In this document: piece after piece, positions 7,530-31,620 of the stretch
How the letters are laid out: every line of letters begins with the position of its first letter
Position numbering within the stretch: position 1 is the first letter of the stretch
NCBI RefSeq assembly: GCF_900066015.1
Contig: NZ_LN890655.1
Coordinates: 1,776,726-1,840,725 of the forward strand
Direction: 5' to 3'
Length of the DNA stretch: 64,000 nucleotides
Source of the DNA: Candidatus Promineifilum breve
GTDB taxonomy: Bacteria; Chloroflexota; Anaerolineae; Promineifilales; Promineifilaceae
Notes under the pieces: model-generated
What the model saw: the letters and a program-made list of their open reading frames with translations, nothing else
Databases searched by the model: none
Told to the model about the DNA's origin: nothing
Translations under genes and position numbers: made by a program

Positions 7530-7538
7530 CCAATGACG

Positions 7539-20854: not shown

Positions 20855-20968
20855 TGGATAGTGGGCAGTGGGTAGTGGACAGTGATCAGGCTGACCACTG
20901 ACCACTGACCACTGACCACTGACCACTGACCACTGACCACTGACCACTGACCACTGACCACTGACCAC
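20855..20968. repeat. Heptamer array (TGACCAC x 11) with inverted left arm
   Basis: Eleven perfect copies of TGACCAC occupy 20892-20968. A partly complementary GTGGGCAGTGGGTAGTGGACAGTGATCA stretch (in pieces, 20860-20888) precedes it. The heptamer is the reverse complement, in rotated register, of the AGTGGTC array at 25720-25824. It lies between the binding protein and its ATPase. Confidence 0.95.
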
Positions 20969-21009
20969 CAATCTGTGAAATCTGTGTAATCTGTGGTTTC
21001 TCTTCTTTA

Positions 21010-21795
21010 ATGAGCACGCCAGAGTTTCTCTCTCTCCACGACGTGGGCCTGACCTTCGCCGACACGGGCGAAGAGGTTTTGTCGGGCGTCACTCTGTCGA
21101 TTCGCGCCGGGGCGTTTGTGGCCTTGGTCGGCCGCTCCGGGGTGGGCAAGTCAACCTTGTTGCGGGTCATCGGCGGGCTGCTGCGGCCGACGGCCGGCGT
21201 CGTGCGCTTGCTGGGCGGCGACCCGGCCGTCTCGCCCACGCCCATCGGCATCGTCTTCCAGCGCGATAACCTGATGCCCTGGCGGACGGTGGCGGAAAAT
21301 GTGAGGTTGCCGCTGGAGATGAGCAGGGGGGCAGGGGAGCAGGGGAGCGGGGGAGCAGGGGAGTTGATGGATGGGGCGGCGCGGGTGGCCGAGGCGTTGG
21401 CGATGGTGGGCTTGAGCGATCAAGGGGATAGCTACCCGGCGCAACTGTCGGGCGGCATGGCCCAGCGCGTGGCGATTGCCCGGGCGCTGGTGCACCGGCC
21501 GGAGTTGCTGCTGCTCGACGAGCCGTTCGGCGCGCTCGACGCGCTGACGCGGGAGCACATGGCCCAGGAGCTATTGGGCATCTGGCAGGCCCACCCGGTG
21601 ACGGTATTGATGGTGACCCACAGCATCGCCGAAGCGGTGCTGCTGGCCGACGAGGTGCTGGTGATGAACGACCGGCCGGGGCGCATCACCGAGCGCATCG
21701 CTATCGATCTGCCGCGGCCGCGGGCGCTGGAGATCGAGGCAACGGTGGCGTATCAGGAGTATGTGGCTAGGGTGCGGGCGGCTATTAGGGAGTAG
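21010..21795 (+). CDS. ABC transporter ATP-binding protein (SsuB/TauB/ThiZ-like)
   Basis: The 261-residue product has Walker A GRSGVGKST, a Q-loop FQRDNLMPWRTVAENVRLPLE, signature LSGGMAQRVAIARAL, Walker B LLLLDEPFGALD and switch MVTHSIAEA. The FQRDNLMPWRTV form is typical of the nitrate/sulfonate/pyrimidine importer class, matching the upstream binding protein. Residues ~105-119, after LPLEM, are a Gly/Ser/Ala/Glu/Gln low-complexity insert encoded by an intergenic-type minisatellite (21321-21366). A permease is missing from the cluster, so the transporter may use a distant one. Confidence 0.87.
   Translation: MSTPEFLSLHDVGLTFADTGEEVLSGVTLSIRAGAFVALVGRSGVGKSTLLRVIGGLLRPTAGVVRLLGGDPAVSPTPIGIVFQRDNLMPWRTVAENVRLPLEMSRGAGEQGSGGAGELMDGAARVAEALAMVGLSDQGDSYPAQLSGGMAQRVAIARALVHRPELLLLDEPFGALDALTREHMAQELLGIWQAHPVTVLMVTHSIAEAVLLADEVLVMNDRPGRITERIAIDLPRPRALEIEATVAYQEYVARVRAAIRE
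21321..21366 (+). repeat. GGGGAGCA minisatellite inside the ABC ATPase gene
   Basis: Units of the type GGGGAGCAGGGGAGC run in frame through the coding sequence and encode RGAGEQGSGGAGE. The same units occur between genes at 29785-29845 and 55990-56025, and inside thiD at 30204-30260. Confidence 0.9.
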
Positions 21796-25220: not shown

Positions 25221-25721
25221 ATGGCAATTCTCGACGACCGGACGCTGGACTTTGTCAGCACGAGCGTGGCCCAGACCGAGCGGCTGGGCATCCGTCTGGG
25301 CGAGCTGCTGGAGCCGCGCGACGTGGTCTGCCTGTCGGGCGAATTGGGCGCGGGCAAGACGACGCTGGCGCGGGGCATCGGCCGCGGCTGGGGCACGCCG
25401 TTGCGCGTCACCAGCCCGACCTTTGTCCTGGTCAACGAATATCCGCGCTCCAGCGATGGCGCGATTCTCTACCACGTCGATTGCTACCGGCTGGAGCGTG
25501 CCGCCGACATCGCCACCACCGGCCTGGAGGACATCCTCGACGCCGAGGCCGCGGCCATCATCGAGTGGCCGGAACACATCGTCGATCTGCTGCCGGCCGA
25601 CCGGCTGTGGATCACCCTGACCTATGACAGCCCGACCCGCCGCCGCCTGCGCCTCAGCGCCATCGGCCCGCGCGCGGCCAATCTGTTGGTCGATTTTCGC
25701 AAGAATGCCTTTGGCGTCTAG
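25221..25721 (+). CDS. tsaE: tRNA t6A biosynthesis ATPase TsaE
   Basis: The 166-residue product has the TsaE P-loop GELGAGKTTLARGI, the VTSPTFVLVNEY strand, the HVDCYRLER motif and IIEWPEH. TsaE assists TsaB-TsaD in making N6-threonylcarbamoyladenosine at position 37 of ANN-decoding tRNAs. tsaB and rimI follow, the common bacterial order. TATAAT at 25206-25211 ends 9 nt before the ATG. The stop codon overlaps the first copy of a heptamer array. Confidence 0.93.
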   Translation: MAILDDRTLDFVSTSVAQTERLGIRLGELLEPRDVVCLSGELGAGKTTLARGIGRGWGTPLRVTSPTFVLVNEYPRSSDGAILYHVDCYRLERAADIATTGLEDILDAEAAAIIEWPEHIVDLLPADRLWITLTYDSPTRRRLRLSAIGPRAANLLVDFRKNAFGV

Positions 25722-25824
25722 TGGTCAGTGGTCAGTGGTCAGTGGTCAGTGGTCAGTGGTCAGTGGTCAGTGGTCAGTGGTCAGTGGTCAGTGGTCAGTG
25801 GTCAGTGGTCAGTGGTCAGTGGTC
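25720..25824. repeat. AGTGGTC heptamer, 15 perfect copies
   Basis: Fifteen exact tandem copies of AGTGGTC run from 25720 to 25824, beginning inside the TAG stop codon of tsaE (25719-25721). It is the reverse-complement counterpart of the 11-copy array at 20892-20968. An ATCTGTGAAATCTGTGG fragment follows before tsaB. Confidence 0.97.
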
Positions 25825-29771: not shown

Positions 29772-29883
29772 GGGGGTGGGGGGCAAGTAGGAGCGGGGGA
29801 GCGGGGGAGCGGGGGAGCAGGGGAGCAGGGGAGCAGGAGAGATTCTACCCTTTGCGTCTTTGCGCCCTTGCGTTTTTCTTCGG
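29772..29883. repeat. GGGGAGC minisatellite and CTTTGCGTC element
   Basis: Units GGGGAGCGGGGGAGCA run from about 29785 to 29840, followed by half of the CTTTGCGTCTTTGCGCC element (about 29850-29878). It lies between the GbsR-type gene and thiD, whose two internal inserts belong to the first of these families and to the TAGGGCGGG family. Confidence 0.85.
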
Positions 29884-29913: not shown

Positions 29914-30768
29914 TCAATGGCCCAGCGGCCCCGCCCCCAGCCGCCAGGCCGCGCCGCGCTGGATGGCGGCGTGGGTGTAGGCTTGCGCCCGGCGGATGGC
30001 TTCCGGCCAGTCGTGGCCCTGCGCCCGGTAGGCGCAGATGGCCGCCGAAAGGGTATCGCCGCTGCCGTGGGTGTTGGCCGTGTCGATGAGCGGCTGCGGC
30101 AACTGATGCCAGCGGTCGCCATCCCAAAAGAGGTCAACGATCTGCCCCTCATCCCGCCGCCACCCCTTAACCAGCAACCGCGGGCCATTGTCTAACGTCT
30201 CTTCTCCTCCCCCCTGCTCCCCTGCTCCCCCGCTCCCCTGCTCCCCTTCCCCCTGCTCTGCAACGCCAACCCCCAACAACGCCGCCTCCCCCCGATTCGG
30301 CGTCACCAGATCGGCCAGCGGAAACAATAGCTTCCGGTAGGCCGCGGCCACCTCCGGCCCAAACATCGCCTCGCCGCGATGATTCACCAGCACCGGATCG
30401 ATGATGATTGTAGGGCGGGTTGGCAACCCGCCCCCGCCGCCACCACGATCCAGAGGGCGGATTGCCAACCCGCCCAACAAGGCCAGCCGCCCGGCCACAG
30501 CCTCGATAATCTCCACCCGCCCCAGGAACCCGGTCTTAATCGCCGCCGCGCCGTAGTCACTCAGCACAGCATCGATCTGCACCGCGACCATCTCCGGCGG
30601 CAGGTAATGGACGGCGGCCACGCGCTCCGAGTTCTGCGCGGTGACGGCGGTGATGACGTTCATGCCATAAGCGCCGAGGGCGGCCCACGTCTTGAGGTCG
30701 GCCTGCAAACCAGCCGCGCCGCCGGAGTCGGAGCCGGCGATGGTGAGGAGGGGGAGGGGATGAGACAA
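29914..30768 (-). CDS. thiD: Hydroxymethylpyrimidine/phosphomethylpyrimidine kinase ThiD
   Basis: The 284-residue product has the ThiD core: TIAGSDSGGAAGLQADLKTWAALG in pieces, a DPVLV substrate strand, LVTPNRGEA, and the anion hole NTHGSGDTLSAA. ThiD phosphorylates HMP and HMP-P in thiamine synthesis. Two low-complexity inserts lengthen it: a Gly-rich one (IRPLDRGGGGGGLPTRP) from a TAGGGCGGG palindrome, and an EQGEGEQGSGGAGEQGGGEE one from the GGGGAGCA minisatellite. The start is a TTG directly after the stop of the preceding antitoxin gene. A second copy of the 5' end lies at 31520-31562. Confidence 0.88.
   Translation of the reverse strand: MSHPLPLLTIAGSDSGGAAGLQADLKTWAALGAYGMNVITAVTAQNSERVAAVHYLPPEMVAVQIDAVLSDYGAAAIKTGFLGRVEIIEAVAGRLALLGGLAIRPLDRGGGGGGLPTRPTIIIDPVLVNHRGEAMFGPEVAAAYRKLLFPLADLVTPNRGEAALLGVGVAEQGEGEQGSGGAGEQGGGEETLDNGPRLLVKGWRRDEGQIVDLFWDGDRWHQLPQPLIDTANTHGSGDTLSAAICAYRAQGHDWPEAIRRAQAYTHAAIQRGAAWRLGAGPLGH
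30204..30260 (-). repeat. GGGGAGCA minisatellite inside thiD
   Basis: On the coding (minus) strand the units GGGGAGCA run in frame and encode the Glu/Gln/Gly/Ser-rich insert. It falls between the conserved LVTPNRGEAALLG and the RLLVKGW strand, a surface loop in ThiD folds. Confidence 0.9.
30412..30476 (-). repeat. TAGGGCGGG palindrome inside thiD
   Basis: Perfect 14-bp arms 30413-30426 and 30462-30475 flank a 35-nt spacer. The element is in frame with thiD and encodes the Gly-rich insert just before IIIDPVLV. The same family occurs between genes at 33741-33793. Confidence 0.92.
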
Positions 30769-31005
30769 TCAGCGTGTCCCGACCGGCGAGACAGGTAGTT
30801 CGGCCAGCCGCATCACCAGGCGCAGCGCCTCGTTGACTGCTTCTTCGGTCGGAAACGCCGCCGCTACATCGGGGGCCAATAATACCAAATTCGTGCCGTG
30901 GGCAAATGCCGCCGCATACTTGCCGCGGGCGCCCCCTTTAAGCAGCGAAGCCAGGTCGTATTCAGGCCGTAGGTCATCATTAGGATCAAAAATTTCCGTG
31001 TTCAT
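30769..31005 (-). CDS. Antitoxin-like partner of BrnT
   Basis: The 78-residue protein (acidic N-terminus DPNDDLRPEYDLASLLKG, then RGKYAAAFAHGTNLVLLAPDVA) is not BrnA-like; it lacks an RHH motif. It resembles small proteins that follow BrnT in some cyanobacteria and Chloroflexota. It overlaps brnT by 20 bp and directly precedes thiD. Its neutralising role is inferred from position. Confidence 0.65.
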   Translation of the reverse strand: MNTEIFDPNDDLRPEYDLASLLKGGARGKYAAAFAHGTNLVLLAPDVAAAFPTEEAVNEALRLVMRLAELPVSPVGTR

Positions 31006-31264
31006 AAGCTATCCGTTCGGTTGCGGTCAATTCACGAGCGCTAATGAGGCGGATACGCCTGTCCCGGTCTGTGTGAGCGACGAGCAGCAGGCGGCGACTA
31101 ATAGACAGGCCGACCGTAATGTAACGTTCTTCATCTTGAGAATGATCAGGGTCCGGCACAGTGAGCGATAGCGAGTCGGCCAACACTGTGGCCGCTTCGT
31201 CAAAGGATACGCCGTGTTTACGCAGATTGGCGACCGCCTTGGCTGGATCCCATTCAAACTCCAC
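30986..31264 (-). CDS. brnT: BrnT family RNase toxin
   Basis: The 92-residue product is a full BrnT: MEFEWDPAKAVANLRKHGVSF, DEAATVL, DEERYITVGLSISRRLLLVAHT, and RIRLISARELTATER. BrnT is a RelE-like endoribonuclease that stops translation. It is followed by an overlapping non-BrnA partner. This copy is intact, unlike the one at 22424-22702. Confidence 0.87.
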   Translation of the reverse strand: MEFEWDPAKAVANLRKHGVSFDEAATVLADSLSLTVPDPDHSQDEERYITVGLSISRRLLLVAHTDRDRRIRLISARELTATERIAYEHGNF

Positions 31265-31323
31265 GATTACCAGTATAGCCGGATTGGGCAGTGATCACCA
31301 TAAGCAACAAGAATGTTGCGCAC

Positions 31324-31620
31324 TTAATGTACTTGCCGGCTATAAATGTCTTCAATGACCTCATGCTTAACGTCTTCGAGTTCGGCCATTAGTTGCTCTT
31401 CGGTAAGGCCCTGGCGTTCAGCCTCCTGGCTCATAGCGCTGACCAGATCGCGATGAGCGGCCAATGCCTTGTCGCGCATTAAGTCTTGATACTCCTGATA
31501 AGAAAGCAATGTACGGCGACCGGAGTCGGAGCCGGCGATGATGGGGAAGGGGGAGGGAATACGGCATAGCCTCAAGGATAGCACAAGGTATATTCGAGCC
31601 ATACGAGTGACATTGATCAT
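31324..31620 (-). pseudogene. Phd/YefM antitoxin fragment fused to a thiD 5' remnant
   Basis: The C-terminal ~60 residues (RTLLSYQEYQDLMRDKALAA, then GLTEEQLMAELEDVKHEV) match the C-terminal half of Phd/YefM antitoxins. The DNA-binding N-terminal half is missing; in its place the frame reads IPSPFPIIAGSDSG, the N-terminus of ThiD. Starts are possible at 31620, 31602 or at the internal TTG of RTLLSY, so a short protein may still be made. No RelE/Doc-type toxin follows; brnT is next. Confidence 0.65.

Follow-up and report, generated by a model that had tools for sequence, protein, structure and literature searches.

Short genomic repeats in frame at two sites of ThiD in Candidatus Promineifilum breve and its sister species

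Intragenic copies of GTAG-tagged repetitive extragenic palindromes (REPs) have already been published, some of them in frame and with dimers coding for 20–30 residues (Di Nocera et al. 2013, PMC3733652); in two Xanthomonas species, different REPs lie at about the same site of recB (PMC3733652). Rickettsia palindromic elements (RPEs) are palindromes of 105–146 bp whose insertions into conserved genes keep the frame (Ogata et al. 2000, as reviewed in PMC2229807), and the RPE-bearing product is still usable, gmk having been tested in Rickettsia (PMC2229807). Here, we describe repeats of both palindromic and tandem type in thiD of Candidatus Promineifilum breve (Chloroflexota), located in a window of 64,000 nucleotides, by which we mean the whole stretch of DNA analysed (contig NZ_LN890655.1, positions 1,776,726–1,840,725), within a genome of 5.03 Mb in three contigs. 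Two repeat families are present in this gene at sites termed A and B, and we propose that such inserts are members of short repeat families with many genomic copies, which have probably colonised spare segments of ThiD repeatedly, being tolerated as near-neutral filler. The features are as follows, in window positions.

29914–30768, minus strand: thiD, hydroxymethylpyrimidine/phosphomethylpyrimidine kinase, 284 aa with a TTG start (PF08543, TIGR00097 and structure model)
30409–30480, minus strand: site A, REP pair encoding LLGGLAIRPLDRGGGGGGLPTRPT, between the helix ending AGRLA and strand IIIDPV (sequence, model and length comparison)
30410–30432, plus strand: canonical GTAG-tagged REP copy, GTAGGGCGGGTTGGCAACCCGCC (about 80 genome places, shared GTAG tag)
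30456–30474, minus strand: second REP copy, in opposite orientation, with a single base change and a decayed tag (GTTG instead of GTAG) (comparison with other copies)
30211–30258, minus strand: site B, GGGGAGCA octamer array encoding GEGEQGSGGAGEQGG, in place of the helix expected before strand LLVKG (Tandem Repeats Finder, TRF, and model)

The palindromes resemble GTAG REPs (PMC3733652) in being 20–40 bp long, with GTAG at one end, many copies, opposed dimers and some genic copies in frame. Unlike those REPs, they belong to unrelated families that hit one loop across the genus, they share the gene with tandem arrays, and a cognate transposase next to the Promineifilum family was not found. 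Like RPEs, they are repetitive palindromes in frame in conserved genes (ThiD, HyuB, an FAD oxidoreductase, a DUF2142 protein and a ROK kinase), but the Promineifilum units are palindromes of 23–36 bp and 8-bp arrays, outside the RPE size range; the analogy that the initial annotation drew with the Rickettsia elements is a fair one. The arrays share with the G-rich heptamer arrays of Xanthomonas and Nostoc (PMC4692102) a G-rich tandem unit of 7–8 bp distributed genome-wide, whereas in the window genome 19 of 49 arrays are in-frame parts of genes, and roughly half of the arrays form long inverted hairpins. Coding palindromes of nematomorph mitochondria, according to the abstract of PMC6649704, likewise place inverted repeats in coding sequence with both arms translated; those, unlike the Promineifilum repeats, are organellar.

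Anatomy of the two inserts and of the enzyme that carries them

The window protein matches PF08543 (E=1.7e-61, profile search) and TIGR00097 (220.5 bits, above the curated cut-off of 204.95), and it is the sole ThiD match in the genome; its closest ThiD matches are in metagenome-assembled genomes (MAGs) named Promineifilum, Chloroflexota. The catalytic NTHGSGD motif and the N-terminal substrate motifs are intact, as had been claimed from the sequence at the outset, and with the profile score they place the protein in the ThiD class. Its structure model (predicted template modelling score 0.82) superposes on ThiD of T. thermophilus (1ub0) with Z 26.9 and a root-mean-square deviation of 2.6 over 230 residues. 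With both insert sites removed, the ratio of nonsynonymous to synonymous substitution rates (dN/dS) is 0.14–0.30 in pairwise comparisons among the thiD genes of the genus. Read from substitution patterns and motifs, then, thiD outside the two sites is under purifying selection, and the window gene appears as an intact ThiD, an enzyme still in use. At the C-terminal GAGHGPLGH motif (window 29914–29950), the window ThiD is two residues short of its sisters.

Site A had been read as one palindrome with 14-bp arms; it comprises instead two inverted copies, the arms of one copy being 10 bp around a 1-nt loop, with a unit of 23 bp and a dimer of about 65 bp. The palindrome GTAGGGCGGGTTGGCAACCCGCC occurs at about 80 places in the genome, against one for the reversed control. 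In nearly all REP copies examined, GTAG stands at the same end, before GGCGGGTTGG; opposed pairs are frequent in the genome, that at 30410/30456 of the window included, and the family is mainly intergenic, with 5/42 sites inside genes. Being a multi-copy palindrome of 20–40 bp with a GTAG end tag, opposed dimers and mostly intergenic placement, site A is by its anatomy an inverted pair of GTAG-tagged REPs. Hairpin strength alone was rejected as proof of this site, since 13/200 codon shuffles equal the window hairpin.

The site B minisatellite of the initial annotation was borne out as an array of six copies of an 8-bp unit (TRF), of the single-arm kind. A three-unit octamer motif has 115 matches in the window genome and is present in 5/8 genomes of the genus, with two single matches across 44 genomes of other genera in the family. 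Both inserts are thus present with the frame kept, and two unrelated repeat families do lie in frame in one thiD.

The two sites differ in their structural setting, judged from models that rest on shallow alignments (14 sequences for the window protein and 11 for a control ThiD from another genus, L045). At site A, residues 102–107 and 109–114 have a predicted local distance difference test score (pLDDT) below 50, as do residues 172–191 at site B. The window model has no helix of four or more residues between residue 165 and strand 197–205, where the control has a confident 13-residue helix (149–161) in a high-pLDDT block. On these models, site A is a loop and site B is where ThiD normally has a helix, and the earlier placement of both inserts in loops therefore stands for site A and not for site B. 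The site B helix is predicted to be lost in the window ThiD and the repeat-encoded segments to be disordered. By length, the site A segment has 40 residues in the window protein and 27–40 across the genus, versus 22 in 21/24 ThiDs of other genera; the helix segment of site B is gone from all ThiDs of the genus, and no repeats of this kind were found in the 24 ThiDs from other genera, site B included.

Recurrence at the same sites across the genus

We compared seven thiD genes of Promineifilum. Palindromes occupy site A in 4/7 and octamers occupy site B in 3/7, and all inserts preserve the reading frame; conservation in all relatives, which the initial annotation had named as refuting its reading, was not seen, the inserts not being conserved throughout the family. 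At site A, genome G037 carries a perfect GTAG palindrome of 31 bp with 15-bp arms, TGTAGGGGCGGGTCTGAGACCCGCCCCTACA, and genome G033, which holds two thiD copies, has palindromes of AGACCT...AGGTCT type, ACCTCTGAGGT... and ACCTGTCAGGT..., with arms of 13 and 15. For each of these sister palindromes, 0/200 codon shuffles match the hairpin, and the palindromes belong to families that are multi-copy in their own genomes; the AGACCT palindrome is a discrete unit of 34–36 bp whose flanks are unrelated from place to place. No clear palindrome was found at site A in G034, G035 or G038.

The flanks of the two G033 copies are identical at 254/258 and 331/345 positions (96–98%), the core at 41/69, and their palindromes differ; this pattern indicates that the pair reflects a recent swap of insert. 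The copies (L043 on C105 and L044 on C585) come from one MAG, in which two strains were probably binned together.

At site B, octamers are present in the window species, G037 and G035, the last with a long array. Read by eye, G038 has ACGAATG-type heptamers, of a family found also at window position 7532, and G033 a heptamer-like stretch; G034 has a short linker. The octamer carriers do not form one clade in the ThiD tree (moderate support, 81/94). Different repeats thus occupy both sites in sister species, and it is therefore the sites that are special rather than the two families seen in the window.

Repeats in other genes of the genome

The initial annotation had treated two families in one gene as a striking case, a view that the genome-wide census does not sustain. 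The census covered 49 octamer arrays and 42 REP sites with a codon model trained on the window genome; loci were taken around the matches listed, making its counts lower bounds. At least 19 of the 49 arrays are in frame within open coding sequence, as are at least five REP sites (in genes for ThiD, HyuB, an FAD oxidoreductase, a DUF2142-like membrane protein and a ROK kinase). Where coding sequence on the same strand lies on both sides, 20/21 arrays preserve the frame (P = 4e-9 versus 1/3), and 1/20 has a stop. Arrays are located in genes more often than REPs (20/49 versus 5/42, P = 0.002), possibly because none of the six octamer frames contains a stop, the encoded peptides being (GEQGSRGA)n and (CSPAPLLP)n, whereas a stop interrupts one frame of the REP. 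Large stop-to-stop open reading frames (ORFs) spanning REPs, among them L066, L086 and L087, were not counted, being without same-frame coding on both sides or without a Pfam match.

Genes with in-frame arrays include those for an ABC ATPase, a MiaB-like protein, MoeA, TrpE, an RlmI-like methyltransferase, a proline racemase and an FtsX-type permease, and the gene for an M16C peptidase has two. In alignments with solved MoeA, TrpE and RlmI homologues, the repeat is extra or unmatched sequence. Many arrays form hairpins, with 24/49 reaching a score of at least 14 versus 1/60 random window positions, and with arms of about four units (31–36 bp). This direct score supersedes a first regular-expression count of 4/49 paired arrays, which was too low because arm units vary.

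Recurrence at one site extends to two further genes. In that for the ROK kinase, the window species has a REP and other repeats, and several sisters have octamer-type arrays at the same site; in moeA, the window species has an octamer hairpin, G035 one of different length at the same site, and G034 none. The moeA locus (L177, G000:C1:1968400-1971400) also contains an ACGAATG heptamer hairpin (MTNDELRMTNEE...SSFVIRHSSFVI), both hairpins being coding, and the heptamer hairpin has a TTA unit in a position at which a stop would arise from a perfect heptamer.

Two further octamer arrays lie in the window.

29790–29841, plus strand: second octamer array just downstream of thiD, outside the gene and in inverse orientation (TRF)
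21321–21363, plus strand: octamer array in frame in an ABC transporter ATPase gene (ORF 20965–21792), encoding the same peptide, GAGEQGSGGAGE (TRF, codon model and PF00005)

The window also contains long, perfect heptamer arrays, CTGACCA x11 and AGTGGTC x15, at 20891–20968 and 25720–25824, which are open in one orientation only.

Origin of the inserts and competing explanations

We propose that GTAG-REP dimers and octamer arrays (elsewhere heptamer arrays), many of them hairpin-forming, spread through Promineifilum genomes and enter coding as well as intergenic DNA. Copies within genes would persist only if the frame is kept and the segment is one that the protein can spare, gene-breaking copies being purged. 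In ThiD, the spare segments would be the loop before strand IIIDPV at site A and, at site B, the helix, lost in the genus, before strand LLVKG; being free to change, both segments may have been filled or overwritten again and again by whichever repeat was active in each lineage. The enzyme would remain in use, with the inserts as near-neutral, disordered filler. Palindromes may have entered by single-strand transfer of REP-transposase type, and arrays by slippage, template switching or conversion. 

Several observations weigh against this proposal. Y1 transposases are present in 7/8 genomes of the genus and none adjoins the window REP family; within the window genome, the site A palindrome lies within about 1.5 kb of none of the three Y1_Tnp genes. 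No empty thiD site was found in a near-identical strain, and the exact insertion event was not seen. The dN/dS values and the ThiD tree were built from seven sequences. Finally, the REP of the FAD oxidoreductase takes the place of an equally long segment (GRVANPPY for GRVPESPY), a pattern more in line with conversion or local rewriting than with insertion. Elsewhere, a Y1 transposase gene (L054, G000:C2:284376) lies near copies of GGCGGGTTTGAACCC and AAACCGGCTGAAGCCGGTT, another repeat family.

Alternatively, a single ancient insertion at each site in the ancestor of the genus could have been followed by divergence or overwriting rather than by repeated colonisation of an empty site, an account that we consider possible though doubtful. 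It would explain why the genus differs from most other genera at both sites, in segment length at A and in the missing helix at B, and it accords with the short linker at site B of G034. However, the site A palindromes come from unrelated families, near-identical thiD copies hold different ones, and the AGACCT palindromes match the multi-copy consensus of their own genome. The unrelated palindromes are therefore not the decay of one element, and overwriting of an older insert is compatible with them.

The octamer arrays might also be a phase-variation switch, in which gain or loss of an 8-bp unit shifts the frame and so turns thiD and other genes off reversibly: the unit length is not divisible by three, genes contain in-frame arrays, and array length varies between species. 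Yet every array in the sister thiD genes keeps the frame, units within arrays vary, and for the most part the host genes are not classic contingency loci but encode housekeeping enzymes and membrane proteins, making such a switch improbable. We judge it quite improbable that thiD is a decaying gene marked by the inserts. Loss of a core helix is predicted, the C-terminal GHGP motif of the window species is two residues short and the 5' end of thiD is rearranged beside a toxin gene, but the frame is open in all species, dN/dS is 0.14–0.30, the genome has no second ThiD match, the motifs are intact and the profile score exceeds the cut-off. An assembly or consensus artefact is extremely improbable since, although assemblies tend to fail at repeats, the flanking sequence is unique, 20/21 arrays preserve the frame and comparable inserts occur in independently assembled sister genomes.

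Beyond repeated colonisation by tolerated repeats, we tentatively raise a stronger and rather unlikely possibility, that self-spreading hairpins of tandem units (each arm with about four units of 8 bp or several of 7 bp, the octamer being open in all frames) behave like mobile elements, enter genes in frame by the dozen and repeatedly overwrite the same dispensable segments, core helices included. If true, repeat DNA would rewrite protein structure at a few permissive sites.

No in-frame tandem repeats in Chloroflexota were found in the literature searched. Within that literature, three features appear to be new: two sites of a single enzyme are hit recurrently across the genus, palindromes and tandem arrays occur mixed, and octamer hairpins are common as coding inserts. 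Coding palindromes, known from Rickettsia, Wolbachia and a few further genera, are hereby extended to a genus of Chloroflexota, and tandem-array hairpins are added as a class of coding insert. The locus also amounts to a natural experiment on the uptake of alien sequence by a protein: the same two sites of an enzyme carry different repeat-coded peptides within one genus, so that the tolerance, cost and origin of inserts are directly comparable.

Turning to the neighbourhood of thiD, a BrnT toxin gene (30986–31264, PF04365) and a small ORF downstream of it (30772–31005) lie just upstream of thiD. Two 40-bp direct repeats (30722–30761 and 31520–31560) bracket both genes (region 30722–31560), and a thiD-like N-terminus (IPSPFPIIAGSDSG) can still be read from the outer one; because of this, the BrnT module seems to have been inserted upstream of thiD with duplication of the thiD 5' end. 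The TTG start of thiD now stands directly after the TGA of the small ORF.
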